This document shows positions 34,907 through 59,600 of a stretch of 64,000 bases of DNA, piece after piece. Source of the DNA: Elusimicrobia bacterium RIFOXYA2_FULL_39_19 (GTDB lineage: Bacteria; Elusimicrobiota; Endomicrobiia; CG1-02-37-114; XYA2-FULL-39-19); the NCBI GenBank assembly GCA_001800285.1, contig MGVC01000008.1:62001-126000 (forward strand). The letters run 5' to 3'. Both the position numbers and the translations under genes were made by a program. Numbering within the stretch: the first letter of the stretch is position 1; each line of letters begins with the position of its first letter. The notes beneath the pieces are model-generated. The model saw nothing but the letters and a program-made list of their open reading frames with translations. It was not told the DNA's origin and made no database searches.

Positions 34907-34935
34907 TTGACTATTTAGGTATAACATACTATATA
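34907..34935 (+). promoter_or_regulatory. Sigma70-like promoter of the small Cys-peptide gene
   Basis: TTGACT (34907-34912) and TATATA (34930-34935) are spaced 17 bp apart and lie 28 bp before the peptide ATG. Confidence 0.7.
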
Positions 34936-34963
34936 TAGAGTATAAGGCCGCCAGGGGGATATT

Positions 34964-35125
34964 ATGTCAAAAAAAGCTGTGAAAATTAAAAACAAGAAAA
35001 AATACAGTAAGCCAAAAATATCGTCGGAAAAAGTATTTGAAACCGCGGCTCTGGCTTGCGGAAAATGCCTTGCCGGCAACCCGATATTTAAACCCACGGG
35101 TTGTGCACCGCTGAGATATTCTTAA
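34964..35125 (+). CDS. 53-residue Cys-containing peptide, RiPP-precursor-like
   Basis: ATG 34964 follows AGGGGG with five-base spacing and a 17-bp-spaced promoter, so expression is credible despite the short length. Residues 1-18 are strongly basic (MSKKAVKIKNKKKYSKPK). Residues 19-31 (ISSEKVFETAALA) look like a leader region. Residues 32-53 are ACGKCLAGN-type core with Cys 32, 35 and 47 and a Gly/Pro-rich end (PTGCAPLRYS). A basic YxKPxI segment, SEKVFE and then a Cys-Gly-Lys core is the layout of many unannotated short peptides thought to be ribosomally made and modified. No modifying enzyme (radical SAM, LanM, YcaO) is within view, but an S26-like protein follows 77 bp downstream. Function is unknown; a zinc-finger-like or stress peptide is an alternative. 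Confidence 0.7.
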   Translation: MSKKAVKIKNKKKYSKPKISSEKVFETAALACGKCLAGNPIFKPTGCAPLRYS

Positions 35126-35129
35126 GACA

Positions 35130-35165
35130 GTGATTAAGTGGTTAGTGGTTTGTCATTAGTAAAAT
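35130..35165 (+). repeat. Intergenic repeat, gtgattag family (copy 4)
   Basis: GTGATTAAGTGGTTAGTGGT followed by TTGTCATTAGTAAAAT resembles the arms at 11561 and 14299. It lies between the Cys-peptide and the S26-like gene. Confidence 0.55.
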
Positions 35166-35202
35166 ATTTACTATTAAGTAATTCCAAAAAAAGAGGATAT
35201 AA

Positions 35203-35580
35203 TTGGAAAAAGAGAATGTGTTTGTGGTAAGAGGTGATGGCGGGTGCATGAGGCCGTTTATTAATAACGGCGATTTCTTGTTTTTTAAAAAGACAACCAC
35301 CTATTATCCGGGAGATGTAGTCTGCTACGAGCACTCATCACGGAAATTTGTTCACAGGATTAAAAGTATTTCAGGTAGTACCGCTATCATAAACGATGAC
35401 AGGGGCATAACAGCAGACCATTCAGTAGAATTAGATTGCATTCTCGGAAAACACATTGGTGGAATTAATGGCGCGGCAGGATTATACTTAAATAAGCTGC
35501 TTAACCGGCTATATAATTTCTTCTTTAAACGGCAGCAGAATTCTACAGATTCTGCTTGCGGAGATCTACAAAACCCGTAG
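35203..35580 (+). CDS. S24/S26-type signal-peptidase-like protein with Cys at the nucleophile position
   Basis: A 125-residue protein, start TTG 35203 after AGAGG at 35192-35196. VVRGDGGCMRPFINNGDFLFF aligns with the S24/S26 core G-x-S-M-x-P-x2-x2-GD, but the catalytic Ser is replaced by Cys 15. KFVHRIKSISG places His 51 where SipW/ER-type signal peptidases carry His as general base. No obvious N-terminal membrane anchor is present, in contrast to typical type I signal peptidases. The C-terminal ~45 residues are less conserved. It could be a thiol peptidase maturing the upstream peptide or an inactive relative; both are inference. The giant gene starts 32 bases after its stop. Confidence 0.7.
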   Translation: MEKENVFVVRGDGGCMRPFINNGDFLFFKKTTTYYPGDVVCYEHSSRKFVHRIKSISGSTAIINDDRGITADHSVELDCILGKHIGGINGAAGLYLNKLLNRLYNFFFKRQQNSTDSACGDLQNP

Positions 35581-35612: not shown

Positions 35613-38600
35613 ATGCTTTATAAAAAAAGAAAAACATTTTCTGTGTATCTTTATTTGCTGCTGACATACATTATAATTATTATGTCAGCTGTTAATGTAT
35701 TTTCTGCTAAAAGAGTAAAGACTGTTGAGTGGAACTTCGGGTCATATTATTCTAATTCGGATATTGCTTCAAATTCATATTGGGACCCGCCATATATAAC
35801 TATAAACCTGCCGGAAACAGATATTACCATAAAAAGTGCTTTTCTTGAATTTGAATGTATAGCAATCGGTAATACCAATATGACCGGGTTGGATGTTCTT
35901 TTTGATCAGGGTACAGGGGTTCCTTCGTCAACAGTTGATAACATAACATCCCAATACACTTACAAGTCAGGTGAAGATATAAGAAGTTTTGCCAGGGCCG
36001 ATGTGACTACAAGCATGACTGCCTGGTCAAACCAGGCGTACCGTTCGAGGGTTAGAATGACGGGTCCAGAAACAAATATGCATTCGTTGAAATTATACAT
36101 TACTTATGAATATGATGATAAAAGCTCAGTACAGATAAAAACAGTTAAATTTCCTCTTGAAAGTATTGAATCAACGGTTTCTGCCGGCACATATGATTTT
36201 TCTTACAATTTGTACATCCCTGAAGAAGCATACCCAGGCTTTACAGTAAAACAGCAGTGGGTAGAAATGAGAGGTTTCAGGTCGGCAGGAACAGCAAGCA
36301 CAGATGGTACAATATCATGCAAAATTGTTGAAGACAACTTAATCTCTGAAATTATGAATCTTGATGGTTCACTAAAGGATTCTTATGATTTCAGGTATTT
36401 GTGTGATACGGGAACTTTCAGAACCGGTGGCTTAAACACAGCCAGAACCATGAGGGTAACCACAGCAGATAATGCAACTATTGCCTGTCTTGGCGGGGAA
36501 ATAGTAATTACATACGAATATTCAACTACAGCCGCCAATAAACTCAGAACCGTAGAATATTTTATGGGGCAGACTGAAACCATAGGTGCAGCTGCCACCT
36601 GGAAAAATGATTTTGTTATCTATGGCTCCGGAATTAACATAAAAAAACAGTATTTTGCCATAGAAACCACCCATAACACAACTACCCAGGAAACTATAAG
36701 TTCAACAGGCAGTGTAAACGGTTCTGCCTATTCATCAAAATATTTTGCAGATCAGACTGCTGCTGTTGTTGTTTCCGGGTACAAAGCATTTCATGATATT
36801 AGTTCTGTCAGCAATGCCTGGAATATATATGTGTCAAGCGCAAAGGCAAGTTTTGATTCAACTTTTAAACCTGAATCGGCAAACTATGGTGCCATAGGTG
36901 TGAAACTTGTAGTCACTTATGAGTATACCTCAGATCCAAATTATAATGAATTCTACAATACGTTTGCAGGCCAATCAACCGGTGGAAATGCCAGCCCGGA
37001 CCAGGAAGTCTTTAATGTGTTTTTTCCTGACCCTGAAACTCCCGCAGGGTTGAAAGAAAAAAGAAGTACATTTTTATACCTGCAGAAAATGTCCAATATA
37101 GCTACTGCAGATATGAAAACAAGAATTGATATTGACGGCAACAATCAGATATCTGCCCAGTCCAAGCATCCTACTGAAAGCAATTTCATTGTAACTTTAT
37201 ATGATGCCCAGCAGATAACTGTTTCCTCAACTTCGGTAACAGCTAACTATAATCAGGTTACTACTGCTGACGGTTCTACAACCAGGGGTGCCTATAGCGG
37301 TGTTTGCAGAGTCAATTATACTTATTGGCCCGTAGCCAGCTCTCCTACTGTTTTAAGCCAATATAAAAATGACGGCACAACTCAAATTTCAACAGGCGCC
37401 TGGACCAACCAGAGCAGTGTAAGGTTGAAGTTTAATATGGCATCAAAAGTACAAGGGGATATTCTTTCTCCGATAATTGAAGTTAAGCCCATAGCAACAG
37501 CGTTCAATGACAATAGTTTATCTACAGGAACAGCCCAATATTATTCCGGGGCAGCTTTAAACGGAGATTTGTTGGTTACAGGGCTTGCCTCAGGCACCAC
37601 TTATCACTGGCGGGCTTATACAATTGGTTATGGAGGCAGAAGCAGTTCTTCAACTTTTGGCGGGAATCTGGATTTGCCATTACCTTCAGCGGTTGATTTT
37701 GGTTGTGACCTTTCAAGCCCGGGTGCTTCGGTTTTATTGGGCCCTCTGGCAAATTCAGTTACAAACCAGTTAAGCCAAGCATTCAGCTGGTGCGCTTCAA
37801 CAGATACTTATTCCGGCATGAATAATTATACTCTTCAGATTTCAACTGTCCCGGATTTTACAACTGTTAATTACTCTACAATAACAAGCGTGATAAATCA
37901 TACAGCTATACTAACCCAGGCTACTTACTACTGGCGTGTTCAACCTAAGGATGTTGCAGGCAATTATGGTTTATGGACCTCAAGTTTTGCTGTTCTTGTA
38001 GATACAACGCCGTCAGTGCCTCCGGTTTTATCTTCACCCATAACAGGGCACGCTACAAATTATCTCAGCATTAATTTTAACTGGAATGTAGTCAGTGATA
38101 CGGCAACCGGTACTTCCGGAATAACCGGTTATACTCTTTTTGTTGCTACAAGCACTGATTTTACAACCATAAGGTATTCTTCAAGCACAAAATATAATGC
38201 CGCAACGGTTTTAGTTACTCAATCTACTTATTACTGGCGCGTAACGGCTGTTGATAGGGCAGGCAATACAAGTTCTCCGTCTTCAATATATAGTATTTTA
38301 GTCGATACAACTCCGCCTCCGGTTCCTTCCCTTTCCGGGCCGCTTTCTGATTTTGCTACCAATTACGCCAATATAAATTTCAGCTGGAATGTAGTAAGTG
38401 ATACCGGCACCGGCGGTTCGGGTTTAAAACATTATGCAATTCAAATTTCAACTTCTCTGAACTTCAGTTTAGTAAATAATACAAGCACTACAACTGCTGT
38501 TAATCTTTCGGTAGCGCTTGGTTTTCAGTCAACCTATTACTGGAAAGTAAGCGCTGTAGACAGAGTGAACAATTCATCAAATTACAGCGGTGTTTACTAT

Positions 38601-41600
38601 CTGCAGTATGATACTACGGTTCCCAATGCTGTAGTTTCTCAGCAAAGAGATTCCTCCATAATGCGTTTCAGGAATACTGACCCGGGTTCTTATGTAAATA
38701 TTGATTTTTATGAAACCGGTTCTTACGGGCCCAGTAGGTTAAACGTAATCCGTTACAGCGTTACTTCTGAAAGCGACGGCGGCGGAACTTTAATAATCCC
38801 TGCCACAAACCTGGACACTCCGCCTTCAAATAAAGCCTATTATGATACCGACTGGCCTCTTGTGTGGGGTTCTTTGCAGGAATGGGCTACAAACTATGTG
38901 CACCTTTATTATTCCGATAGAGCGGGAAATTTTGCCAACTGGTACAATGTTTTTGATGTTTTAAAAGACACTACGCCTCCTGCGGTTCCTTCACTTTCAA
39001 TTCCTTCAAATAATTCTGCAACAAATTATATGTATATAAATTTCAACTGGAGCCCCAGCGCTGATCTTCGCTCCGGTACCAGCAGTTATCTGCTTGTGCT
39101 TTCAACAGACTCTGCTTTTGGCGTTATAAATTATTCAAGCGCGACAGCACAAACTTATGCATCTTTAAATGTCAGCCAGGCAACTTATTACTGGCGCGTA
39201 TCAGCAATAGACCGTGCTTACAATAACAGTAATCCTTCTTCTGCCTTTAGCGTGCTTGTGGATACAGCCGTACCGGGAAGCATAGTAGGTGTATCTTTAG
39301 TTAATGGAGCTACCGTTTGGAGAAGAATAAATGACGGTACTTATGATGTTGATTTTGTTGATACAGGCGGTTCAAATTTAGATAAATACCAGATAGCGGT
39401 TTCTACATTCCGGGGTGCAAATTCTTCAATGCTTAACTGGTCTGACGGCAGTTCAAATATAAACAGATACAATTCCTATACACCTCAGTGGCAGTTCACT
39501 TTAAACCAGTGGGATTTGCTGGGTTCAGGGGTAACCAACTATATCTCAATTAAAACCTATGATTTAGCAGGCAATACATCAGCATTTATAGATGCGTTCT
39601 TTGTTAAAAAAGATACTGTTGCACCCGAAGTACCGGTATTATCAACACCATTAAACGGAACCTATTCAAGCACCAACAGTATTTCCTTTGCCTGGCAGGC
39701 GGCAGTGGATTATCCTTCAAATGGTTCCGGTGTCAACAACTATCAGTTACAGCTTTCAACCAGCAATGATTTCACTACTATTTCTTTGTCCTCCATCACT
39801 TCATCGCTTAATTGTTCCATTGCTTTAGCCCAGGGTGTTTACTACTGGCAGGTAAGCGTGCAGGATAAAGCCGGTAATTCCAGTGCCTATAGTTCAGCCT
39901 TCAATCTTGTTGTAGATACGGCACCACCGGCATTTAATGACCAGCAGTCCGGAGATAATGCCTGGCAGAAATCGCAGGGAAAAACCTATGCTGTTTATTT
40001 CAATGATTCGGGATATGCGCAATCCGGCCTTGATGTCCTGCAGTACAGAGTTGTTACCGCCACCGGATTTGTAGCCATTGATTGGAAAACTATACAGGAT
40101 TTAAACGGTGACGCTTCCTGGAACACCCCCTGGTCTGTCGACTTTACCAAACTTGTAGAAGATGTAACAAACTATGTTTATGTACGTGCCTGGGATATTG
40201 CAGGAACAACAGCTACTTCGCAGACAGATGTTTTTTATATATTAAAAGACCAGACTAATCCGGATATGACCGATAACCAGTCCGGAGATGATAACTGGAG
40301 AAATAGTGCAGGCACACTTTATAATGTTGATTTCAAGGATCCTAATCCGTCAGGTTTTTCCTCTGGGCTTAACACAGTAAACTATAAGGCTACATATATT
40401 GGTGCCGGCAGTGAACCTGTTTTTGACTGGCGCACTTTGATTTCAAACGCAGTCTTAAACAATGCCACTTATTACAATACAGACTGGGCTGTGCCGGATT
40501 TCAATGAATTGCGCGAAGGCAAAAATCATATTGCTGTTTCTATTACTGATGGTGCCGGTAATTCACAAACTATGGAAACTTATCCTCAGCCGTTTTATGT
40601 TCTTAAAGATACTACCGTACCCACTGTTACCCAGGTACCGGCTGCAGATAATTCCTACAGAGTGGCAAACACAGGTTTTTATGGCGTATATTTTGCGGAT
40701 AAAAATTCCGGTTCAGGAATAAAAGGTTTTGAAATCATTGCTTCAACTGCCGGTGGTACTACTGCCCCGTTAATACAATGGACTAATGTTTTATCAACTA
40801 ACACATATTCATATACCGAAAGCTGGGTTCTTCCTGAAACTGTTTTTGATGCCATGCTTTCCGGAAGAAATAAAAATTATGTTTCTGTAAGATGTTATGA
40901 TTTTGCCGGAAATACCTCAACTATCTATACAAATGCTTTTTATGTGTACAAGGATACGGTAACGCCTTCAGTAATTAACAATATGTCAGGCGGGTATAAT
41001 CCCTGGCAGCAATATGGCGGAAAAACTTATGATGTGGATTTCAGGGATAATGAATCTTTAATATCAGCGGCTCAATATATTGTAAGAAACGGCCCCGGAC
41101 AGGATGATGTTCCCTGGGCGCCGGGCTGGCAGAATATTTTTAATTCAACAGGAACAATGCTTTATTCGGCAGACTGGCAGGTGGACTGGAGTAATCTTTT
41201 TGACGGCTGGAATTATGTATCAGCAAGAACCTGGGATGTTGCAGGTACCACCCTTACTGCCAATTATGTATTCCATGTAAAAAAAGATGTTATACAGCCC
41301 TCCATTGATTCTGCCAGAATGTCAGGCGGGGATACTCAGTGGCGCAGTTCCAGCTGGACTGTTTATGATGTAGATTTTGCAGATATTCTTTCCGGGGCGG
41401 TTACGGCCCAGTATCAGATAAAAGACTCCCAAAACAATGTACTTTATGCCTGGGAAGATATCTTTACTTCTACGGGCCACGTAAGTTATTCTCAGGATTG
41501 GCCTGTATCAAACAATGCTTTTGCAACAATGAAAGATGGTACTACAAACTATGTCTTTGTCCGTTGTTATGACGGGGCTAATAATAAAATAGAACCTATT

Positions 41601-44600
41601 AATCCGGTTTTCTTTGTATTAAAAGATACCACTGCACCTACAATGGCAGTAAATAATACTCATTACGAAGGCTCAAACCCGGCAGCCTTTACCGCAATAA
41701 ACGTGGATTTTTATGAACCCATTAATTCCGGTGTTCTGCCGGGCGGTTCAAAACTTAATTATGCCCAATACGCTATTTATACACAGAAAAACTTAAACGG
41801 CACCGAAAGAAAAGCCTGGACCAATATAAACGGCCTTACTCCGGGAACCACTTACCACTTAGCTAACTGGTCTGTTGATTACAGCGCGCTGTTAAAGTAT
41901 ACCACCTGTTACGTTTCCGTGCGTGTTATTGACCTTGCAGGCAACACGTCAACCTGGTACGATGCATTTACCGTAGTTCGTACCACAGCTTCTGCTCCAA
42001 TTTTAACGGATAATCACGACGGAGATTATACCTGGCATAAATCAACGGCCACTCTGCTGAATACTTACTATAACATTGATATGGAGTCAGGCACGGGCGA
42101 TGCTTTAAGCGGGCTTGCCGTGCAGTCATACAACCAGCCGTTATACCAGGGCAAAAAACTTCTTAACTGGACTTATGTCATTTCAACAAATACAGCGCTT
42201 AATTACACTGACGACTGGAAACTTCAGCCCTCAACCATCGCAAACAAAAATTATATCTGGGAACTGCTTGAAGAGGGGACCGGTTATATATCCGTAGAAG
42301 CTTATGACTCAGCTCTTGCCTCATCAACCATAAACGATGTATTTTTTATAAGAAAAGACACTACTGTTCCTTCCGTATTTGATAATCAGGCAGGGGATTT
42401 TACTTACAGGAAATCAAGTGGTACCGCCTACAATATTTCTTTCAGAGATTTGGCAAGCGGGCTGGCTACTGCCCAGTACAGAATACACACTGCTGCAGGC
42501 GGCGGTTCAGGCATAGTAAACTGGACCGATATATTTTCCTCCAGCCGGACCGGAAGAGATTATAATTCAAACTGGCAGATTTCAGATTATGCCTGGGGCA
42601 GAATAAATGAATATACAACCGGCTATGTAAGTATAAGAGTGTTTGACGTTGTTGGGTTGTCCTCTGAAACAATTGATTCGTTTATAATTTTAAAAGACAC
42701 TACCTCTCCTACGGTCCCATCATTATCTTCACCGTTAAACCAGCTTGTTACCAATTATTTACTGCTTAATTTTAATTGGGGCGCTGTTAATGATAATACT
42801 TCAGGTGTTAAAGATTATACTATCCAGCTTTCAACCAGCATAAATTTTACTACGGTTTATTATTCTTCACTAACCACTAACAACTATCTGCTAACTACTG
42901 TTTCTCAATCAACCTATTACTGGCAGGTAAAAGCTCAGGATATTGCCGGAAATTACAGCCCCTGGTCAGGCATTTACAGCGTATTAGTAGACACTACTGC
43001 CCCGGCATTGCCTGTTATGTCATCACCAATAAATAATTACACAACAGATTATATGATGATTAATTTTTCATGGGGCCTTGCTGATGACAGCGGTTCAAAA
43101 GGAAATTCAGGCATTAAAAATTACACTCTTCAGATTTCAACAAATACTGATTTTTCAACCATTTATTATTCAAGCATAACCAGTCAGACCAGCCTGAATG
43201 CAGCCTTGGGCCAGGCCATTTATTACTGGAGAGTTAATGTACAGGATAAGGCTCTTAACTCTCAGTTGTCAATCCAGAGTTATCAGCTGATTATTGATAC
43301 TTCAGGCCCGGAAATAGTTGATAATCAAGCCGGCGACGGTACCTGGAGAAATAATCCGGGAACAGGTTACAGTATTGTTTTTAGGGATATATTTTCAAAA
43401 CTCCAGAAAATTCAGTACAGAATTTCAACTTCAACAAATCCTGCAGACGCGCCGGTTCTTGTCAGCGGCAATGTGTGGAATGATATAGATGTTGCAGAGG
43501 GTGATTCAGAATATACGGTTGCCTGGCAGGTTTCTTTTTCAAATCTTATTGAAGGTACCAGTAACCATATATCAGTAAGGTCCTGGGATACATTGCTTCA
43601 CTATACAACAAACTATAACGTTTTCTATGTTATGAAAGACCAGTCGGTTCCTGATATCATTAACAACATATCCGGAGGTGATAATAATTGGTATACCACA
43701 AATACTACGGCATTTGATGTGCACTATCAGGATGCCGGCGGTTCAATGCTTAATTATTTTCAGACAAAAATAACTACCGGGACTGTCAGTGCTTCACAGT
43801 CCGTTGATGACTGGAGAACTGTTACATCCGGGTTGAATACAAATTCATTTACTGATGATTGGGGTTTGAAATCTGAAACATGGGATGTTCTTAGTGAAGG
43901 GAAAAGTTATGTGCATTTGCGCGTTTATGATAATGCGGGGAATTCACAAAATTATGAACGTGCATTTCATATTCAGAAAGATACTACTGCCCCCAATATG
44001 GATGATTACCAGACGGGGGATACACAGTGGCGTTCATCAAACAATGGAACTTATGACATAGATTTCAGGGACCCATTATCCGGAAGCGGAGTACAACAGT
44101 TTGATGTGCTTATATCAACAGACGGCAATAATCCGCAGGCTGGAAAAATTATAGACTGGTCCAACGTAGTAACAACCAATACCTATATATACTCAGACCG
44201 GTGGGTGCTTCCGGAGGGTATTTTTAATTCATTGCAAGAAGAAGTGACCAATTATGCCTGGATTAGGGCACAGGATTTTGCTTCAAATTATTCAACCTCA
44301 AGCGCATATCTGTTTTATGTGTTAAAAGACACAACTCCGCCTACTTACACAAATGCACAGTCAGGAGACGCTGTTTGGAGGAAAAATTCTTCTGCACAAT
44401 ATAACATCAAATTCAATGATACCGGCGGTTCTAAACTATCAAAATTCCAGGTAAGGGCTTCAACTGCCGGTTACGGCGTGCCTAACTTTAGTTTTGACTG
44501 GTCGGACCAGCAGTTAAGCATTAATGCAACGCATTACAGCCAGTCCTGGGCTCTTGATTCAACCCTTTGGGATTTGTTAAAACCGGGTACAAATTATATT

Positions 44601-47600
44601 TCCGTTAGAATAATTGATAATGCCTATTCCACAACAACACTCAATAATGCTTTTTACATTCTTAAAGATACCCAGCCGCCTTCCGGAATTGCCCAGGCGC
44701 CCGCAAATTCAGGATTGCTTTCATTCGGGATAAATTATTTGGCCTCAGATGCCGGGCCTTCAGGCCTTAATAGTGTTAAACTTTATTACACGGCACAAAC
44801 TGCTTCACCTTATACCTGGAATTATTCACAAACCGTTACCTCAAGCCCTGTAAATTTCGTAGCTTCCGGAGAAGGGGTCTATGGTTTCAGGATAATAGCT
44901 TTTGATAATGCGGGTAATACAGATGAAACGGATCCTCCGCCAAGCACGGCAGAGCCGGAATCCCAAACATTAATAGATATTTCAGGCCCTATTATAAGCG
45001 ACAATGAAACAGGAGATAATACCTGGAGAAAAACAGCTAAACCAGATGGCTATCCTGTATATTTCAGTGATGCAGGTTCAAAACTTGATACGGCTCAGTA
45101 TATAATCAGAACCGGGCCTGATGCAGGCAGCCCTGTGCTTAAAGACTGGTATACGATTTTCGCAAACTTAAATTTGAATTCATATAACACGGACTGGAAT
45201 ATAGATTTTGATGCCTGTAAATCTTCTTATAGTTATGTTTCTGTCAGTGTTTGGGATATGGCGGGCACCACTACTACTTTAAATAATGCATTTCATGTAA
45301 AAAGAGATACCCAGGCTGCGGTAGTTTCTTATAACGAATTTACCGGCGGCGGGGATAATACCTGGAGAAATACTGCAAAAGCAGTTGGTTATAACGTTGA
45401 TTTTCAGGATAACTTATCCTATCTATCAAAAGCTGAATATAAAGTAACGGCAACAAATAATTTTAACGGCCAGGTAATAATTGACTGGCAGACTATTGAG
45501 ACAAGTATTTCTTCTTCAAGCTATGCAGTTGACTGGCCGGTTGATTTTAACAATCTTGTTGAATGGACCACAAATCATGTATTTATAAAACTTACCGATA
45601 TAGCCGGTAATGAAGCTACCTATTATGCTTTTTATGTTTTAAAAGACACTTCAGTGCCTTCAATTACCAACAGTGAAACAGGGCAGGATGCTGCCTGGCG
45701 CAACGCCTCAAGGCAGTTCAATGTTAGTTTTGCCGACAATAAATCAAAATTAGACAGTGTTTTCTACCGCCCTTATGCAAATACTTCAGGGGCAGATCCT
45801 TTGGCGGACTGGCAGTCCATAGCCGGGCCCGGGATAAATACAAGTAATTATAATGCCTTGTGGCAGGTGAATTTTGGCCTGCTTCAGAATGGAACCAACT
45901 ACATGGCTGTTAAGGCGGTTGATTTGGCAGGCAATACTTCAACCTATTATGATGCTTTCAGGGTTTTAAAAGACCAGCAGCCTCCTGTAGTAGATGATAA
46001 TATTTTTGATGATGACGTAAGCTGGAGAAAAACAAACGATGCAGTTTATGATGTTGATTTCATAGACAGCCTTTCAAAAATAATATCCTTTCAGACAATA
46101 GTGCACACAGGCGCACTTCAAACAGGAACAACCATAGATAACTGGAGAACTGTTTTAACTACAAATACCGCACTATATGATACTGACTGGCAGTTGAAAC
46201 AGGAAACATTTGACCTTGTTCCGGAAGGCCAGCACTATATTTCAGCCCGCGCTTTTGACGTGGCAGGAAATACTTCAACAGTTACAGAAATATTTTTTGT
46301 AAGAAAAGACATAACAGTTCCAAGTATCAACGATAATGAAAATGATGATGAAACCTGGTATTTAACCGGCAGGAACTATGATGTAAAGTTTTATGATTAT
46401 GTATCTCTTCTTGATAAAGCCGAATATGCCGTTTATGCAAGCTCCGGATTGCAGGGCCAGCAGTTAAAAGATTATACCCCCGTATTTAATAACCTGAATT
46501 TATCTTCTTATGAAACACAATGGCCTGTTGATTTTGGCGCTTTGAAACAGGGTTATAATTACGTGTCTGTAAGAGTACAGGATTTTGCGGGCAATATTAC
46601 TTCTCTTAAAGATGTTTATTACATTAAAAAAGACACCATGGCGCCTGCTGCCATTACAGACCTTACCCAAACAACAGGTTCTAATGAAGGCGAGCTGGCC
46701 CTTGAATGGACCTGCCCCGGTGATGACGGGACTTATAACGGTGCGGTAAATAGCTATTTAGTAAAATTTGCTACTTATAACATTACCCAGAATGACTTTG
46801 ATAATGTAAATGTTTTCTGGCAGGCATGGGTTCCTAATGCTCCGATGAACAAACAAGCCAAAACATTAACCGGGCTTACTCCGGGAAGATCTTACCGGAC
46901 GGCAATAAAAACTTATGATAAAGTAGGGTCAAGCAGTACTATTTCAAACATTCCTTTCGCCCTGGCCTCCGGTGCAGATATAACTCCTCCGGGACAGATA
47001 ACTACGTTCAGTGCAGTATCAGGAACTTATGAAGGGCAGATAAAACTTACCTGGATTGCTCCCGGAGATAACGGAACTATGGGTAATCTCACAGGAACAA
47101 GAATAGAAGGCGATTCGTTTAACGGCTACTACGATATCAGGTACCGGACTGACGGCCTGGTTTCAGACGGCAACTGGAATACATCAACGCAGGCAACAGA
47201 TGAACCTACACCTCTTTCACCCGGGTCTTTGCAGGAATTAACTATTGCAGGTTTTACAACAGGAACAACCTATTATTTCGGCATAAAAACCTATGATGAT
47301 GATGTGGATGCCACAAACAACTGGTCTTCGCTTTCAAATTCCACCTCTTGTGTTCCGGCAACAGCCGGTGCGGCTAAAGGCCATATCATGTGGGGTTCCG
47401 GAACGCTTGATAATCCAAAAAGCAGAAGATGGCTGGCTCCCGGCTGGGGTTCACCCGGAAGCGGAGCTCTTGCATCTCAGACCATCAGATGGGTCAAGGG
47501 TGCTTCCTGTCCTGTGTTAAGGGATGAAAAAATTGTAGGTATTCTTTCCGGAAATGCAGCTGCAGGTTCAGGTAAACTATATTTACAGAGAAATAGCGAC

Positions 47601-50600
47601 AGTTCAACCAACGACTGGACTGATTTATTGGGCCAGGTAAATACTACCCTTACGGATGACAGGTACAAATCTTTTGATATAGCCTATGAACAACAATCAG
47701 GCCGGGCTTTAATAGCTTATTACAATGGTATGACCGGAAGAGTTGCTTACCGGGTTTGGTCTTCAACTGCGGCACAATGGCTGACAGGTGTTTCTTCCAA
47801 AACTTTAACGCTGACAGGTGTTACCGGCGCTGTCAATTTTGTACGCCTTGAACCAAAACCGGGTTCTAACCAGATAATGATCGCTACTCTTGATTCCAAT
47901 AATGATATTTTCTGTGCTGTCTGGAATGGAGATACAAATAGTTTCTTAAGTGTCAGCACTTATGTTGCCACTACCGGGGCGCCAATCGCTACGGAAGAAT
48001 GTTTGGATATTGCCTGGGAAACTAATTCGGGTGATTGCCTTGTGGTTTATGGTGAAACAACCAATTGCGCAACAAGTATTTGGAACGGTGCTTCCTGGTC
48101 CAAACTTTCTGCACCCAATCCTTCCATTGGTGCCGGTGTTGCAAATTGGCTGACTGTTGCTTCTGACCCGACTTCAGACAGGGTCGGGTTTACCTGTGTT
48201 GATGTGGGTAATGACTGGAACGTGAATATATGGGACGGTTCCTCCTGGCAGGCAACTCCTCCAACGGAAGACAGTACAATTGAAACAGATACAAGCAGAG
48301 ATATTGATGTTGCCTGGGAAAGGGACTCTGGCAGGTGTATTTTTGTAGCAGCTGATTCAGCTGCAAGAGAACTTTCATATTTGGGCTGGTCACCCGGTTC
48401 CGGCTGGAATGAATTAGGCGGAGGCAGTCCTTCTGCGGCGTTGAAGACATCAGCCGGAACCCTTGCCTTGCTGGGAGATATAAACTGGCTGCAGCTTACG
48501 CCGGACCAAAATAAAAACAGTATGATCTGTACAATTTTAGACCAAAGTAATGATTTAACAACACTGTCCTGGACCGGTTCTGAATGGGATGCTTCATCCA
48601 AATTAGTTCAGGAAGCAGGTGTGTCAGACAGTAATTATGAATCTTTTTATGTTATGCTTGATAAGCACGACATAACCCCTCCTACGATTTCAGATCCGGT
48701 AGCGGATGACGACACAGTATGGAGAAGTTCAGCTAATCCGGGTGTTATATACAGCGTGAATTTTGCAGATGACCATTCAAATAATTCCAAACTTAAATAT
48801 TTTGAAATTAAAATTACCTCAGGTGCCAATCAATCAGGCACAGTTTTTGTTAATTGGACAGATAATTCTCCGGCAGGTTTTTCAGGCAATACAAGCTATT
48901 CATCTTTATGGCAGATTAAAAGCGCAATCTGGGCCGGTGTAAATGACGGCATTAACTATGTCTCAGCAAAAGTGTACGACGGAGCGGGTAATGCAACAAC
49001 TAAAAATGATGTATTTTTTATTAAGAAAGATACCACAGTTCCTACAACCCCTGTTTTAAGCAATCCTTTAAGCGCAGTTACTACAAATCAGACAACAATA
49101 AATTATCAGTGGCAGGCATCTCAGGATGTAACCAGCGGATTGAGTTCCTACAGAATAGTTATTTCTACAGATATAAATTTTGTAACTGTTGTTACTACCG
49201 TAACTTTAGCGGAAACCCAAACACAAATCGGCAGGTTTGACGGCACGCATTACTGGAAAGTACAGGCGCAGGATAATGCAGGAAATTATAGTTTGTGGAG
49301 TTCCACCAGATCAATAAAAATAGATACCAGCAGGCCTGTAATTACCAATAATCAAAGCGGGGACTATGTCTGGAGAAACTCAAGCGGTACTTTATATAAT
49401 GTTGATTTTTATGACGCTTTTACAGGACTGGATAAAGTTGAGTACCGGGTATTTTCTTCAACCGGAGCAACAGGCGCTCCATTAATAAGCTGGACCACTG
49501 TCGCTTTGAACCTTAATACAACTTATTACGTACAGGACTGGACCCTGTCAATGTCAGCATTTGCTTTACTGCAAAACGGCACCAATTATGTTTCCGTAAA
49601 AGCATCAGACCTGGTAGCAAATACTTCGGAATATGTTGATACGTTTATTATAAGAAAAGATGTTCAGTCACCACCGGTACCGGTTTTATCAAACCCGATA
49701 AACAATTATACTACCAGCCAGTTAATGCTTGGTTTCAGCTGGCAGGAATCCACAGACCTGATAAGCGGTACTTCAAATTATCAGTTGTATATTTCTACAA
49801 ATCCGGATTTTTCATCAGTTATTTTTTCAAGTATAACCAGCCAGTTAAGCTTAACCGCTTCTATAAGCCAGAATAGTTATTGGTGGAAAGTAAGGGCCAA
49901 AGACAGGGCAGAGAATTATTCCAGCTGGTCCTCAACTTATTCGTTTATAATATCAACCGGTGTACCTACAACTACCCAATTGTTAGCTCCGGTAAGCGGA
50001 CAGGTAACTCTTACCCAGGCAATTTCATTTGACTGGTCTGACTCCCTGCCTTCCGGATCCGCTATTTCTAATTATCAGATTCAGGTTTCAACAGACATTA
50101 ATTTTGCTTCTATTAACTATTCGGCAGCTCCGTCAACTTCTTATGTGGTTTCAGATACGTTTCCTTCAGGTTTGTATTACTGGAAAACACGGGCCAAAGA
50201 TGCTTCAAATAATTATTCTCTCTGGAGTTCCACCTGGGATGTTACGGTTGATACTACAGTACCTAAAATAACTAATAACATCATAAACGGGCTGACTACC
50301 TGGTTTAATGCTGACCCGGGAAATACTTTGGATATTGATTTCATAGATATAAGCGCAGGTTATTTAACGGTTCCTAAAATTGACAGGATACAATACAAAA
50401 TCCATCCTCAGCCCAATGAAGGCGGTACTCCGATAGTCAGCTGGGAAAACGGTACCATAGCCGGGCCAAACTTAAATCAGCAGTCATATAGTAGCAATTG
50501 GGGCCTTTCAGCCGGTGATTTTAACCTGCTTCAGAATGGCACCAACTATATTTCAGTAAGAGTGCTTGACCTTGCCGGGAATACATCCTCCTGGATTGAT

Positions 50601-53600
50601 GCTTTCAGAATTTTAAAGGATGTTAACCTGCCGTCAATTAACAACTTGCAGACAGGTGATTTCAACTGGAAAAAATCAAGCGGGACAACATACAATGTGC
50701 AGTTCCAGGACACCGGCGGAAGTTTGCTTTCAAAATTCCAGGTTAGAATATCCACTTCACCAGGGTTGTCCGGCACTGCTGTTCTCGACTGGACTGACCA
50801 GATATCCGCGATAAACAATAGTTTGCATACAAGCACCTGGGTTTTTACTAATAGCCAGTGGGTCCAGTTATTTGAAGGTGCAACAAACTACGTTTCAGTA
50901 AAGGCTTTTGATTTGGCAGGAAATACTTCTGCTTATTATGATGTTTTCTTTGTTTTAAAAGATACAAGCGTTCCTTCAATTGGTAATAATGAAACGACGG
51001 ACAGGGGCTGGCTAAGCGCTGATCCCGGAGCAGTATGGGATATTGATTTTTATGATACTCCGGTACCGGGCAGGACTCCGGGGGCATCAAAACTTGATAA
51101 TATTTTCTACAGGGCCCGGTCTTCTACCGGCGGTATTATTATTGACTGGAAAACACTAGGTACTTCACTTAATACCACTTACTATATTCAGAATTGGGGT
51201 GCAGATTTTGACCGCCTCTATAACGGAAATAATACCATTGACGTCAGGGCGGATGACCTGGCAGGGAATTCTACAGTATATGTAAATGCATTTATCATAA
51301 AGAAAGATACCACAACCCCCAGAATAGAGGTTGCTTTTGATACCATGACGGTTACCTGGATAAACAGCAGTCAGGTTTATGATGTGAATTTTTATGCGCA
51401 GGGCGCTTCAGCACTGGATACGGCTGAATATGCGGTATTTACCGGGCCGAATTATTCTGTAAGCCAGAAAATCGGCTGGACACCTATTCCGGGTACTTAC
51501 GGTGAAACAGAATTCACCACAAACTGGCCGGTATTATTTTCTCAGTTGCAGGAAGGCGGTACAAATTATGTGTCGCTTAGATGCTGGAATGTAACCGGTT
51601 CTACAAAAGCTGTAACAGACGCATTCAAAATTTTCCTTGATAATACAAACCCATCCATAGCAGACAGAACCGCCGGTGATGATACACTGTGGCGTTCTAC
51701 AAACACCGGAGTTTATAATGTTGATTATTATGACCTTCCGATAGATGGTTCAAGAATTACAAAATTCCAGACCAAGGTGACAACAGGCGCTTTACAAGCA
51801 GGCGAAGTACTGGAAGACTGGACAGATAATGTTCTGGGCATAGGCACTACTTATTATGAAACCAACTGGGCTCTGAAGTGGGGTACTTTCAATAAAATGC
51901 GCCCTGATATTGATAACTATGTTTCAGCTAAAGTGTTTGATACTGCCGGCAATACTTATGAGCTTTCAGATATATTCTTTGTAAGAAAAGATACTACGGC
52001 TCCTACTGTAAATAATCAGCAGTCAGGAGATTTTACTTTCAGAAAATCAAGCGGAACAAATTATGATATAAGGTTTAATGATACGGGCGGTTCAAAACTC
52101 ACAAGATTTGAAATATGCGCATCTACCACAGCAGGCAGTTTCAGCCAGGGGCAGTTGATAACCTGGACCACCGTTTATTCCGGGCTTGATACAAATTCTT
52201 ACAGTACTCCCTGGCCGGTACCGGCGTCAGTATGGTTAGCGCTTGAATCAAGAACCACAAACTATATTTTTGTAAGGCCTTTTGATACTGCCGGCAATTC
52301 ATCTACAACTTATAATTCTGTTTTCATGGTATTAAAAGACACGGCCGCTCCGGATATAATTTCAAATGAATTCGCCCGCGGCTGGTTTAATGCAAATCCG
52401 GGCGCAATATGGAACGTTGACTTTAAAGATAATCAGGGTATGCTGGGTTCCGGTTTGGATAGCGCGCAGTGGATAGCTTATCCGGGCCCAAATAATTCAG
52501 GCGTTTCTTCCACCGGCTGGAAAAATATCTTTACCGGATTGGGAACAAAGAATTATACCGCCGAATGGGACCTGTCCGGCGCAAATTTTAACCTGCTTGA
52601 TGCCGGTACAAATTATATAACGGTCCGGGCCTGGGATATGGCAGGCTCTACCAAAACAACTATTGATGTGTTTGTTGTTAAGAAAGATACTTTCGGCCCG
52701 GTTATTACTGATAATATTTTAGGCGGCATGGCCACCTGGTATGCAGCGGATCCGGGAGCTGTTTTCAATGTGGATTTTGCAGATAATCTGTCAAACCTGG
52801 CCAGCGCCTATTACATAATCTATCCTCAGTCTGATATAACCGGTACGGCAGTTACTTCCTGGTCAGAAATATTCAACGGAGTTAATCAGCCGGATTTTAC
52901 TGATAACTGGGGGCTGGTTGTTTCTGCTTTTGATTTACTGCCGGAAGGTACGTCCTATGTAACTGTAGGTGCTTATGATAATTTAAACAGTTCTTCAGTT
53001 TATAAAGATGCCTTTGTGATAAGAAAAGATACTACGGTACCTGATTGCGTGGATAATCAGGATGGGTTGTATATTGATTCGCAGGATGACCTTGCAGATA
53101 TAAATTTTGATTTCTATGATAACGGCTGGTCAAAATTATACAGGCTTCAGTATACCGTAAAACCTGAACCCGGATTACCCGGGTCCTATATACTTGACTG
53201 GAGAAATATTCCCGGCCTGGCGGACGGCCTTAATACCACTTACTATATTACCAGCTGGAATATAACTGAAAGCTGGGGCTATCTGTCAAATCAAACTACG
53301 GGTTATGTGTCCGTGCGCGCCCTTGATTTTGCCGGCAACACCACCACCTTTATTGATGCTTTTACAATATACAAACAGGCTGCAGGGCCTACAATTACCG
53401 ATAACGTAGATGAAAACTATCTTCCCTGGTTCTCAATAAGCAATTTCAATGGAAAATTATGGGATGTTAACTTCCAGTCCAATTCAGGGCAGAACCTGGA
53501 CAGGTTTGAAATAAAAATAACTACAGGCATTGATCAGACAGGCGCAGTAATTGCTGACTGGTATAATGTGGTAACAGATATTTCAAACACAATTTATACC

Positions 53601-56600
53601 GATGACTGGACTATTTCTCTGTTAAATTTTACAAATATGTACCAGGGCAAAAATTATGTACACGTGAGAATTTATGATACTGTGCCCACTTCTTCATTGC
53701 TTAACAATGTGTTTTATATAAAGAAAGATACTGCCTCACCGGTAATTACTGACCTTCAGGATGATACTACATTTTTTGCATCCGCAAACTGGAATTCTTA
53801 TAACGTTGATTTTGAAGATGCAGGTATAGGTGTTTCAACGGCAGAATTTAAAGTAAGCGACCAGTTTAATAATACGCTTATTAACTGGACCACAATTTTC
53901 TTTGGTGTTTCTCAATCAGCCTATGTTTCAAACTGGGGCCTTACAGCTTTACAGTTTAACGCGCTTCAGGAATATGCAACAAACTATGTTTCGGTGCGCG
54001 CTTATGACGGGTTTAATTATTCCACGGGCCCCGTTGATGCGTTCTATGTATTAAAAGACACCACTTCGCCAAGCGTTCCTGTGCTGTCTTCGCCGGGCGA
54101 TAACTTTATTTTCAGTAATCAGTCGCTTACCATGCAGTGGGGTGCTTCTTCTGATGCCAGGTCCGGTATTGATGTTTACGAAGTCAGTTTAAGTACCAGC
54201 GCAGATTTTGCCGCGGTTTATATGTCATCTGTTACTAAATTGCTCAGTTTCTCAACAGCTGTTGCTGAAGGCAGTTATTTCTGGAAAGCCAGAGCCAGAG
54301 ACAAAGCCGGCAATTATTGCCAGTATGCATCCGCTTACAGTTATTTAATTGATGTAAGTTCACCGGTTATTACAAAAAATTCGTTTGCTGAGTCTCAGTG
54401 GTATGATACAGACCCGGGTGCAATAATTGATATTGATTTTGCTGACCTGGGGTCCGGTTTGACAACAGTTCAGTACAGGATTGTTTCATCTACCGGCGGT
54501 GTGATAGTTGACTGGAAAGACAAGCTTGATTTCAGTGTACTGCTTGCAACCAGGGTTTATACAACAAACTGGAGCCTTTCTGCGGGGGACTTTGCCCTGC
54601 TTCCTAACGGAACCAACTATGTTTCAATAAGATGTTTTGACAGGGTTGGCATTTCAACTTCAATAGCAAACCTTTTTATGGTAAGAAAAGATACTTCAGT
54701 GCCGGTTTTATGGGGCGCAGATTCTACGGGTACAACAGATACAACCTGGAGAAGCGGCGCGAAACCCGGCGGTTATGATGTTAATTTCATGGATTTAGGT
54801 ACAGGTTTGAAAGATGCGGATTATGCTGTTTACACCGATATGAATTTAAACGGTACGCAGAAAATCGGCTGGACAAATATTTTTTCAAACCTGAATCAGG
54901 GGGAATATAATACTGACTGGAATGTCAGCAACTTTGCCCTGATGCAGGAAGGCGCTACAAATTATGTTTCCGTAAGAGTGAAAGATATGCTGTCCCAGAT
55001 GACCACTTATTACGATGTGTTTTATATAAGGAGAGATGCTTCTAAACCCGTTATAACCAATTACATGAGCGGCGGTGTAACCACCTGGTATAAAATTGAT
55101 CCGGGATCTTTTTTCAATGTGGATTACAGGGATGTGCCTGAAAATGGCGCAAAACTGCAGGAATTCCAGACAAAAGTAATGAGAGGAAATCTTATTACCG
55201 GCGCAACGGTCTGGGATTGGGCTTCAACAGATTTAACCGGAAATAATGCTACCTACTACGTTGATAACTGGAATGTTAATTTTGCTAATTTATGGGAAGG
55301 AAGAAACTATGTTTCCGTAAGAATTTATGATAATGCAGGCAATTATGAAGAACTAAAAGATGCTTTCTATGTATTGAAGGATACAACCCCTCCTACTTTT
55401 ACGGATAACCAGCCCGGGGATGATCAGTTCAGGGCTTCCAATAACGGTACTTATAACGTAAGTTTTGCTGATAAAAATTCCGGGTCCGGTGTTTCCGGAT
55501 TTGATGTTTTGGTTTCTACAATGGAAAGCGGTATTCCCGTGCTTGTTGACTGGGCTACGGTTTTATCCACGGATACTTATTCTTATTCGCAAAGCTGGCA
55601 ACTGCCTCAGGCAGTTTATAACAATATGCTTACGGGAGTTACAAATTATGTCTGGGTAAGGGTAAGCGATTTTGCAAACAATATTTCAAGCGGTACAAAT
55701 TATCAGTTCTATGTTCTTAAAGATACTGCGGGTGTAAGTATAAATGAAACAGCAGAAAACGGACAGGATGCCTCCTGGCGCAATGCTTCAAGGTTGTTTA
55801 ATGTAGATTTTTACGCCACGGGCAGTTCAAAACTTCAGGGCGTACAGTACACCGCTTACACAGATCTTAACTATGGCGGGCAGATGAGGGTGGGTTGGAC
55901 TACTATTTCCGGGTTTACTCCGGGAACAACCTATTTCGTTGACAGCTGGGCTGTTGACCAGTTTGATTCATTAAAAGATGAAACTACAAATTACATATCA
56001 GTCAGATGCTGGAATATAGCGGGTTCTACGCTTACCAGAGAAGATGTATTCTACATTCTTAAAGACACAACTCCTCCTTCAGTTCCGGTATTGGCTACCC
56101 CGTTAACCGGTTCTTCAACCAATCAGCTGAATAATTATTTCGGCTGGGGAAGTTCGTCCGACCTGGGAAGCGGTACTTCAAGTTATGCGCTTCAAATAGC
56201 CACCAGCAGTAACTTTACCACGGTTTATTATTCTTCACTAACCACTAACAACTACTTACTAACCACTATTGCGCAAGCCACCTATTACTGGCAAGTTAAA
56301 ACTTTGGATAGAGCCGGAAACTCCAGTGTTTATAGTTCGGCATTTAGCCTTTTAGTTGATACCACACCGCCAACAGTCCCTGTTTTATCAGCGCCGCTTA
56401 ATGGTTATTCAACAAATCAAATGCTGCTTTCATATACCTGGGGCGCTTCGGATGATTCCGGGGCAAACGGCTGGTCAGGTATAAACCGTTATACCGTGCA
56501 GTTTGCCACAGCCTCTAATTTCACTACTATTACGTTTTCAACTTTGACTGTATCAACTAATCAGCTTATCAACTTATCAACTGAATCTACATATTACTGG

Positions 56601-59600
56601 AAAATAAGTGTGCAGGATAGGGCCGGAAATTCCAGTGTTTATAGCTCACCGTTTAGTGTTTTAATTGATACTTCTGCCCCGCCGATACCGGTACTTTCTC
56701 TTCCGCTTAACGGTTATACCACGAATCAGTTGAACCTGAATTTCAGCTGGGGTGCTTCTGCAGACCTTTTAAGCGGTACTTCTTCTTATAATCTGCAATT
56801 ATCATCCAGTTCAGATTTTACTACTGTTTATTTCTCATCCGTTACTTCATCTCTTAATTGCTCCCTTGCTGTAATTGAATCTACCTACTATTGGAAAATC
56901 AAAGCGCAGGACCGGGTAGGAAATGTAAGCCAATGGTCAAACGTGTACAGTTTGATTGCTGATACTACTAACCCAAGCGCACCCGTACTTTCTGCACCCA
57001 CAAACCAGGCAAGCCAAAACATAAACTCCGTTAATTTCCAGTGGGCAGTGGCAACAGACAGCGGCCCTGCCGGCATAAGCGGTTATGAATTATTATTAAG
57101 CTCCAGTGAAGATTTTACTGCTATTTATTCTTCCTTCATCGCTTCATCGCCCAATTACTCCATCGCTCTTGCTGAAAGCAAGTATTTCTGGAAAGTCCGT
57201 TCAATAGACAGAAGCGGAAACTATTCAGTTTATACTGCTTCTTATTCAATTATTGTTGATACAACAATGCCTTTCTTTGTCAATAATCAAACAGGTGACA
57301 ATACCTGGCGCAGTGCCAGCGGTACAGCTTATAACGTTGATTTCTTTGACAGGCCTGTGCTCAACGGGTCTAAACTTGATTACGGCCAGTATATAGTTTA
57401 TCCTTCAACCAATTCTTCTGGGCGCCCTCAGGGCAGTGCTCTTACTGCATGGCAAAATGTGTTTGATTATACTTTATCAAACGCTGTTACTTATTATGTT
57501 GATAATTGGAACGTAGATGCTTCCTGGAACAGCCTGCAGGAAGGGTATAACTATGTGTTTATAAAAACTTATGATCTGGCAACTTCTTCAAACGAACTTT
57601 ATAATTATGCGTTTTACATAAAGAAAGATACTCAGAAACCGGTAGTCACAATAAATGAACCTGCAATCCCCGGCTGGGATAATGCTGACAGGGCCCATGC
57701 AGTTACTTTCAGCGATAACGGTTCCGGAATAAAAGTTTCATCCTTCAGTGTCTGGACCGGAGCAAATTATACCGGAACAAACAATGTTTCCAGTGCAACC
57801 ATTTTAAATTTCCCGCTTTCACAACCGCAGGCGCTTTATGATACGGACTGGTACCTGGGCGCTTCAAGCTTCACTCTTCTTGCACCCGGGACAAATTATA
57901 TTTCAGTTTTCTGTAGTGACGAACTTGGAAATACCACTTATTTCATTGATGCGTTTAAAGTATTTAAAGATACTATACCTCCGGCAAACATCACAAATCT
58001 TAACAATATAAGCAATACAGCCAAGGCGGCTACTCTTACCTGGACTGCTCCTAACGATGATAATATGAGCGAGACCAATAGGCGTATAAGCAGTTATCTT
58101 ATGAAGTACAACACAACTAACTTTACAGGAAAAACAAACTTCCTGGCTATAGGAACCACTATCGAAACCAATACACCTCTTGCGCCGGCAAAAACAGAAA
58201 GTTATGTTATTACAGGTTTGACTGAAGGAACAACTTATTATTTCGGAGTACTGCCGAAAGATAAAGCTTCAAGTTACAGCCAGAACGTTTCAACAAAAGC
58301 TGTAATAATAATGAGAACAGCCCCTGCCCGGATTACCGACCTGGCTGTTTCCACGCCGGACGAACTATCACCCGGCGAAGTTAAACTTGCCTGGACAGCT
58401 ACCGGTGATGACGGCACAACAGGTACTGCAACCGGTTATGTAATTAAATATTCTCTTACTCCTATTAATAATGAAACCGATTATAATAACGCAACAACTG
58501 CAACTTTAGATTCAAATCCGGGCCCTCAGGTTTCCGGTTCACGGGAAGAACGTCTTGCAAAAAGCTTAACACCCGGTGTGACTTATTACTTTGTCATGAA
58601 ATCTTATGACAACGCAGAAACCCCGAACTATTCAATTAGGTCAAGCACAAAATCAATTCAGGCTAAACCGAAAGGCCCTGCTGACGGTATGTTAGTTTAT
58701 GGCATTACAAGCAATACCCAGCCTAAATATCAGTCAGCCGCTGCAGCTGCTGCTTCCTGGGGCAGTGAAGATTCTGCCTTGGCTACCAGCGCTTCCGGCA
58801 GAATTAACTGGTCTATTGTAAATGCCTGCCCGACATTTAAAAACCAGAAAATGCTTGCAGTGATGGTGGATGACCAGGGCGCAGAGCCTGCCGGAGATAT
58901 TTATCTGCAATACTGGGACGGCCAATTATCCACCTGGACCATCCCTTCAGATCTTGGCGCCGGCGGCAGATTAAATACAAATACTGCAAGTTCTCTTTAT
59001 GCAGACCAGAGATGTTTTGATATAGCTTATGAACAAAATACCGGCAGAGCCCTTATAACCTGGTGGAATGGTACTGACGGTGAAGTAAGTTATAGAATTT
59101 GGTCATCAACATCTTCTTCCTGGGCACAAAGCGGTACGGTTTCCATGGATTTTGATGTAACAAAAGGTAATATAAGGTGGGTAAGAGCCGAAGCTCAGCC
59201 GGGCAGCAACAGAATTATGCTTACTACCCTTGATTCAAATAATGATATTTATTCAATCGTATGGAATGGTTCCGGCTGGGTAAGCGGCAGTTCTATGACA
59301 ATAAATGCCAGCGCGCTGAATTATCAGAATTTCGATATGGCCTGGGAACTTACCGGAGGCAGATGTATAGTTGCCTGGGGTGAAGGTACGGGCACGCAAT
59401 ACAGAATTTATAATCCCGCAAGCGGCTGGTCCAACCAGTCCGCCGGCCCCAACACTACCGTTGCAGTCAACTGGTTAAAATTAAGTTCAGACAGAAATAC
59501 AGGTTCAAATAATATTGCATTGGCAGCTATTGATACAACTCCCGGGTGGACAGTTTCAGTATGGAACGGTTCCATCTGGCAGGCAAGCCCGCATACAAGA

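Follow-up and report, generated by a model that had tools for sequence, protein, structure and literature searches.

A 53-residue peptide with three cysteines and the small signal peptidase-like protein encoded next to it are half of a split RiPP cassette. Both genes lie in the window, the 64,000-nucleotide stretch of DNA from Elusimicrobia bacterium RIFOXYA2_FULL_39_19 that was analysed here. The other half is on a different contig of the same genome, C5, and encodes an HprK-like kinase, a PqqD-type RRE and a radical SAM/SPASM enzyme. It is very probable that the peptide is a RiPP precursor served by the S26-like protease together with this HprK-like/PqqD/radical SAM set. Judged by its gene content this is a RiPP system, with a conserved precursor consisting of leader and core, and with linked enzymes and an RRE (present in the window genome, but unlinked on C5). 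The features of the locus are collected in Table 1.

Table 1. Features of the peptide locus, in window coordinates
Feature	Position	Strand	Basis
Possible sigma-70-type promoter, weak, TTGACT-17-TATATA	34907..34935	+	Read directly in the sequence
Ribosome binding site of the peptide gene, AGGGGGA	34953..34959	+	Sequence; ATG 4 nt further on
Precursor peptide, RiPP-type, 53 aa (MSKKAVKIKNKKKYSKPKISSEKVFETAALACGKCLAGNPIFKPTGCAPLRYS)	34964..35125	+	Homologues in 54/341 genomes of the phylum; alignment A1; 54 distinct sequences
YxKP (Y14-P17) of the leader, predicted to bind the RRE	35003..35014	+	Y and P invariant, 54/54; YxxP binds LppB (PMC13381572)
FET (F25-T27), predicted recognition site of the S26-like protein	35036..35044	+	Cleavage predicted after T27, as in LPP; ALA(31)/C(32) is a second candidate
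Core CGKCLAGNPIFKPTGCAPLRYS, with conserved C32, C35 and C47 and invariant C-terminal Ser53	35057..35122	+	Three Cys and a final Ser in all 54 sequences
S26/S24-like peptidase, 125 aa, TTG start	35203..35580	+	Pfam, signal peptidase profiles, fold model
Predicted nucleophile Cys15 of the S26-like ORF	35245-35247	+	Nucleophile position, Ser or Cys in the family
Predicted active-site His51 of the S26-like ORF	35353-35355	+	Conserved position
Predicted active-site Asp66 of the S26-like ORF	35398-35400	+	Conserved position
Giant Ig/FN3-like protein, 9,460 aa, single ORF	35613..63995	+	Pfam Ig_Rha78A_N, Big_13, fn3, LTD, beta-propeller

A Conserved Precursor Peptide in the Elusimicrobiota

The peptide ORF is present as the first-pass annotation described it, and it has relatives. 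Of 60 relatives searched, 12 have strong homologues, and these belong to the class of the window genome. A profile made from an alignment of 13 peptide sequences (A1) was searched against 341 Elusimicrobiota species genomes and matches 54 of them, with per-genome E-values between 4e-12 and 1e-27; this count leaves out a few weaker matches (E 0.005-0.01). These genomes are MAG assemblies, with ORFs called by script rather than taken from curated annotation. The named records that carry the peptide are Elusimicrobia and Endomicrobia MAGs, several of them from groundwater, and one Planctomycetota. The peptide was found in family f4, which contains many small genomes, neither by the search of 60 relatives nor by the profile search of 341 genomes. 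Searches of Pfam and NCBIfam gave no significant match to the peptide, a profile search of the PDB returned nothing and a plasmid collection contained no match.

What has been kept in the peptide is striking in its extent. The 54 Elusimicrobiota sequences are all distinct, and all of them share Y, P, the E at -2, L, C, K, C, the three Cys (positions 32, 35 and 47 in the window peptide, which the first-pass annotation had picked out for checking) and the C-terminal Ser. The family motifs are YxxP, [FIL]E and L-x-C-x-K-C, and Y and FE are equally far apart in every sequence. At the FET site, position -3 is F, I or L, position -2 is invariably E and position -1 is T, Q, K or S, and at the ALA/C site position -1 is only ever A, S or G. 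The SEKVFE segment, also picked out earlier, reads [ST]EK[VI]FE in the family and is nearly invariant. Every family-invariant residue is intact in the window peptide, which has six residues after its last Cys compared with seven in 53 of the 54 sequences. A lipobox reading of ALAC was also considered and rejected, because Leu is at -2 instead of -3 and the preceding residues form no hydrophobic stretch.

Differences between homologues amount to 0.22, 0.19 and 0.59 at the three codon positions and are therefore concentrated at position 3, and the invariant residues are encoded by varied codons. Given this conservation and this codon pattern, the 53-residue ORF codes for a protein, and the purifying selection on it is strong. 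The ribosome binding site claimed in the first-pass annotation can be read in the sequence. The promoter with a 17-bp spacer that was claimed with it is less secure. TTGACT and TATATA can be read there, but in a consensus scan of the stretch matches were no commoner than in shuffled sequence and this site was absent from the list, so it is graded weak.

The Planctomycetota record (JAADGH010000078.1; L076 8719-11598) carries precursors in tandem, up to six of them, that share this leader (YxxP..SEKVFEQAAL). Their cores are divergent and all end in Ser, and next to these precursors are a PqqD-like frame and a gene for a radical SAM protein. S26-like proteins are encoded in this genome, none of them adjoining the precursors.

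The S26-Like Protease Next Door

The gap between the peptide ORF and the next is 77 bp, as first reported, and the protein that follows does look like a small S24/S26 peptidase. Peptidases of family S26 (signal peptidase I) have a Ser nucleophile that works with Lys or His. The window protein matches Peptidase_S24 in Pfam (1.4e-6) and scores below the cut-off of the signal peptidase I models TIGR02227 and TIGR02228, and a profile of its family finds SEC11A (3e-8). Its structure model (pLDDT 89.6) has a C-terminal helix at residues 90-122 and a fold that matches LexA, SipA and SpsB. Conserved in the family are G-x-[S/C]-M-x-P, GD, HR and D, and both the fold and these motifs are shared with SEC11, SipW and LepB (S26) and with LexA and UmuD (S24). 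In contrast to all of these, the family lacks a membrane anchor N-terminal to the nucleophile, has Cys as the predicted nucleophile at some loci and is fixed in its linkage to a RiPP precursor. The nucleophile position is only ever Ser (43 loci) or Cys (9 loci), and the predicted active-site His and Asp are invariant. The Cys nucleophile that had been proposed for the window protein agrees with the predicted Cys15, which makes it one of the minority. Its predicted active-site residues are all intact.

A Cassette That Is Split in This Genome

Neighbouring genes were scored at 53 peptide loci, and the S26-like gene was judged at the 52 where the contig continues. It lies downstream of the peptide gene at every one of these, within 200 nt at 51, which bears out the suggestion of a dedicated protease beside the precursor. 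On the same strand as the peptide there is a PqqD/RRE gene at 52 of 53 loci, a radical SAM/SPASM gene at 50 and an HprK-like kinase gene at 46. At loci L026 and L147 no HprK-like gene was found despite ample upstream sequence. The gene order is HprK-PqqD-rSAM-peptide-S26-giant in the window's class and HprK-PqqD-peptide-S26-rSAM in family f16. The peptide occurs in 54 genomes, the radical SAM subfamily in 58 and both in 52; since these genomes are related, the Fisher value for the co-occurrence should be taken as no more than a guide. Clustering of the neighbourhoods showed no transporter as a constant member. The HD-GYP gene of the cassette accompanies the others mostly in the class of the window and was left out of the core set; the HD-GYP match at the window locus is a different, GAF-HD-GYP-PilZ protein. 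All told, homologues exist, their reading frame is conserved and their neighbours are far from random. The peptide stands, and the conserved leader and core together with the RRE and enzymes in relatives support its reading as a RiPP-type precursor.

What does not stand is the proposal of a minimal peptide-maturation pair. The first-pass annotation had no modifying enzyme in view, and within the window that is true. However, genes for HD-GYP, HprK-like, PqqD and radical SAM proteins are together on C5 (L047 8816-12030), with all of the enzymes intact. With the enzymes present there, and linked to the peptide in most relatives, the peptide and protease of the window are one half of a cassette rather than a pair sufficient in itself. 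In a relative from the same family, G002, a matching HprK-PqqD-rSAM block is beside a matching GAF gene, and in a radical SAM tree that broadly tracks families the C5 enzyme groups with its own family and order. For these reasons the cassette appears to have been inherited vertically and the split appears to be old. This genome also shows that the enzymes of a precursor can be encoded far away from it, so that such precursors are missed by mining that requires linkage.

Several variations in this organization were also seen. One genome, G171, has two cassettes on separate contigs, C58 and C40 (L122, L123). In family f1 the unlinked HprK-PqqD-rSAM block is followed by the GAF gene and then by genes resembling a membrane-bound hydrogenase cluster (L047 146-8819, L054 7477-9936). 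In three genomes of family f5 (L024, L027, L028) a gene for an ExeA-like AAA ATPase is 3' of the S26-like gene, and before the giant gene where that is seen.

The Predicted Modifying Proteins

The PqqD protein is recognized by Pfam (1.6e-17), and its profile finds TbiB1 (3e-16) and LppB (9x8z; 1.9e-10) in the PDB. Asp69, invariant in the family, aligns with D70 of LppB, the residue that fixes the leader Tyr (PMC13381572). The radical SAM protein has a CxxxCxxC motif and a C-terminal SPASM set of Cys, invariant or nearly so, and its closest solved structures are SkfB and PqqE. It falls far below the cut-off of every NCBIfam equivalog. Sequence searches with the HprK-like protein gave P-loop matches only. 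Its structure model (pLDDT 93) resembles the PEPCK fold most and, after that, the HPr kinase/phosphatase fold. A His, the P-loop Lys and an Asp are conserved, and the second Asp of the lasso peptide kinases is a Glu here.

The Giant Ig/FN3 Protein and a Possible Role

The giant ORF begins 32 bp after the S26-like ORF. Its N-terminal family was found in 25 of the 341 genomes, 23 of which have the peptide, and open frames elsewhere in the family reach about 10,500 aa. In three genomes the S26-like domain is fused in frame to the giant N terminus via a stretch that resembles a signal anchor (L032 1-3540, L033 9170-18001, L034 1-3369). Upstream of the peptide, on the other side of the window locus, a gene at 33078-34781 encodes an M28-type peptidase that carries a sorting tail for type IX secretion (TIGR04183). 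In many f16 genomes the cassette has prepilin-type (N_methyl) genes nearby on one side, and an Rrf2 regulator and an FN3 protein on the other (e.g., L128 10950-11462, L141 5856-8426, L116 6076-6516). The giant protein, these prepilin and FN3 neighbours, the near-invariant core and the apparently vertical descent suggest a conserved envelope-related function over a bacteriocin. A core that hardly changes and descends with its lineage would be expected where a function is conserved, as for PQQ or mycofactocin.

A Proposed Pathway

The best precedent for recruitment and leader removal comes from the LPPs of Bacillota (lppA/K/B/S/D/N), described in 2026 with the first signal peptidase-like leader peptidases in RiPP pathways (PMC13381572). 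There, the RRE LppB binds YxxP, the HprK-like LppK phosphorylates a core Ser and the SpI-like LppS cuts after F-E-T with help from LppB, for which F-3, E-2 and T-1 of LppA matter (PMC13381572). In Elusimicrobiota the leader has YxKPx[IVLM] and FE[T/Q/K/S], so the best guess is that the precursor is recruited as in LPPs and cut after FET. The YxKP of the leader would bind the discrete PqqD-type RRE from C5, which would present the precursor to the radical SAM/SPASM enzyme. This enzyme would then modify the three-Cys core. A radical SAM/SPASM protein together with three fixed Cys points to thioether crosslinks as the most likely outcome, and a Cys thioether in the core is considered probable. 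The HprK-like kinase would phosphorylate Ser. The C-terminal one is the best candidate because it is invariant, as in the lasso precursors of PadeK and ThcoK, kinases that phosphorylate a conserved C-terminal Ser and have the catalytic set His-Lys-Asp-Asp (PMC9266682). By this analogy, phosphorylation of the C-terminal Ser has about an even chance of being right.

Finally, the S26-like Cys peptidase would remove the leader, probably after FET(27) by analogy with LPP, to leave AALACGKC...YS, or alternatively after ALA(31). LppS touches its RRE via an N-terminal helix (PMC13381572). The S26-like family lacks this helix and has a C-terminal one, so the geometry by which RRE and protease present the precursor must differ from that of LPP. 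The product would probably be a lineage-kept factor of the envelope or surface and not a fast-evolving antibiotic; the envelope role itself is put forward tentatively, at somewhat less than even confidence. The system offers ready tests of several questions. Where does the protease cut, at FET/A or at ALA/C? What does an exchange of Ser for Cys do in a natural S26-like enzyme? Do the giant Ig/FN3 proteins of this phylum need a modified peptide?

Other Explanations

What if this is an outlying branch of the LPPs, in which polyphosphorylation by the HprK-like kinase is the main event, the peptide stays linear and the radical SAM enzyme is accessory or acts elsewhere? The SpI-like peptidase, the discrete RRE, the HprK-like kinase and the YxxP and FET motifs are indeed shared. 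However, a radical SAM/SPASM gene is too constant for this to be likely (50 of 53 loci, 52 of 54 genomes), and the three Cys are invariant. The 54 sequences also lack the full LPP motif YxxPxVLxHQxIxFETxxS, with the L, H and Q positions absent and a residue other than Ser at core position 3, where LPPs are phosphorylated, and neighbourhood clustering showed no recurrence of the LPP NTP transferase or MsbA-like transporter. On these grounds the Elusimicrobiota system is kept apart from LPP. An alternative is that the S26-like protein works as a signal peptidase dedicated to giant Ig/FN3 (or prepilin-type) proteins and adjoins the peptide by operon order only. The three in-frame fusions fit this idea, as do a giant gene that is often next and giants that occur almost only with the cassette. 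Nevertheless, it seems improbable, because the S26-like gene follows the peptide at all evaluable loci, about 35 of them without a detected giant nearby. Furthermore, LppS shows that a peptidase of this kind can act on leaders, and FE[T/Q] and the small residues at ALA/C suit a leader substrate.

Two further readings concern the window peptide itself. It could be drifting, because its core tail is one residue short and its enzymes are unlinked, and in the extreme it would be a relict of a cassette broken by rearrangement, whose pathway no longer runs. A close relative (G001, 98% complete) without a match to the peptide or the radical SAM subfamily would fit. Yet the C5 enzymes, the family-invariant residues of the peptide and the predicted active site of the S26-like protein are all intact, and the G002 block beside its GAF gene makes the split look old, so that a relict is doubtful. 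The last reading, a chance ORF or a small basic protein of an ordinary kind that is unconnected with the protease, has the small size of the peptide in its favour and nothing else. Conservation in 54 of 341 genomes and the codon pattern led to rejection of a chance ORF and, with the fixed neighbours, leave this reading almost no room. The preferred reading is still that of a RiPP precursor with its own protease and a modifying set encoded elsewhere in the genome.

Comparison with Known Systems

Among the papers found on radical SAM proteins, PqqD or RiPPs of Elusimicrobiota none describes this system, in a search whose coverage excluded most subscription journals and bioRxiv preprints. LPPs are said to occur in Bacillota only, and no radical SAM enzyme has been reported for them (PMC13381572). 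An LPP-type trio of protease, RRE and kinase is now seen outside that phylum, in the company of a radical SAM/SPASM enzyme. Both systems have a SpI-like leader peptidase of the SipW/archaeal type (Ser-His-Asp in LPP, Ser/Cys-His-Asp as predicted here), a discrete RRE, an HprK-like kinase and similar leader motifs (YxxPx[VIL] and FET in LPP, YxxPx[IVLM] and FE[TQKS] here). The differences extend beyond the radical SAM enzyme. The three-Cys core is nearly invariant whereas LPP C termini are highly variable, the conserved Ser is C-terminal rather than Ser3 of the core, and the leader has two residues fewer between Y and FET. The protease has no N-terminal helix, unlike that of LPP, and descent is apparently vertical whereas LPPs are patchy in Bacillota.

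Paeninodin-type lasso peptide systems (PadeK/ThcoK; PMC9266682) also have a discrete PqqD-type RRE, an HprK-like kinase and a conserved C-terminal Ser. In Elusimicrobiota, however, the radical SAM/SPASM enzyme takes the place of the macrolactam synthase, the S26-like peptidase that of B2 and YxxP that of WxxP; neither a macrolactam synthase nor a B2 leader peptidase recurs among neighbours within 9 kb. A third likeness is with sactipeptide and ranthipeptide systems of the SkfB, ThnB and PapB types, which have a radical SAM maturase with SPASM, an RRE and a Cys-containing core. In sactipeptides and ranthipeptides a Cys thioether is made to an alpha, beta or gamma carbon. The discrete PqqD, the kinase and the SPase-like leader peptidase set the present system apart from them.

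Perhaps this is a new RiPP class, with a thioether core and a phosphorylated C-terminal Ser, release by a signal peptidase-like enzyme with Ser or Cys, a near-invariant core inherited vertically across the phylum, a link to giant Ig/FN3 proteins and a role closer to envelope assembly or a cofactor than to an antibiotic. Taken as a whole this proposal is speculative and somewhat less likely than not. Compared with LPPs, the closest known system, what is apparently new is the phylum-wide and apparently vertical inheritance, the near-invariant core, the radical SAM enzyme, the Ser/Cys switch at the nucleophile and the link to giant Ig/FN3 proteins.
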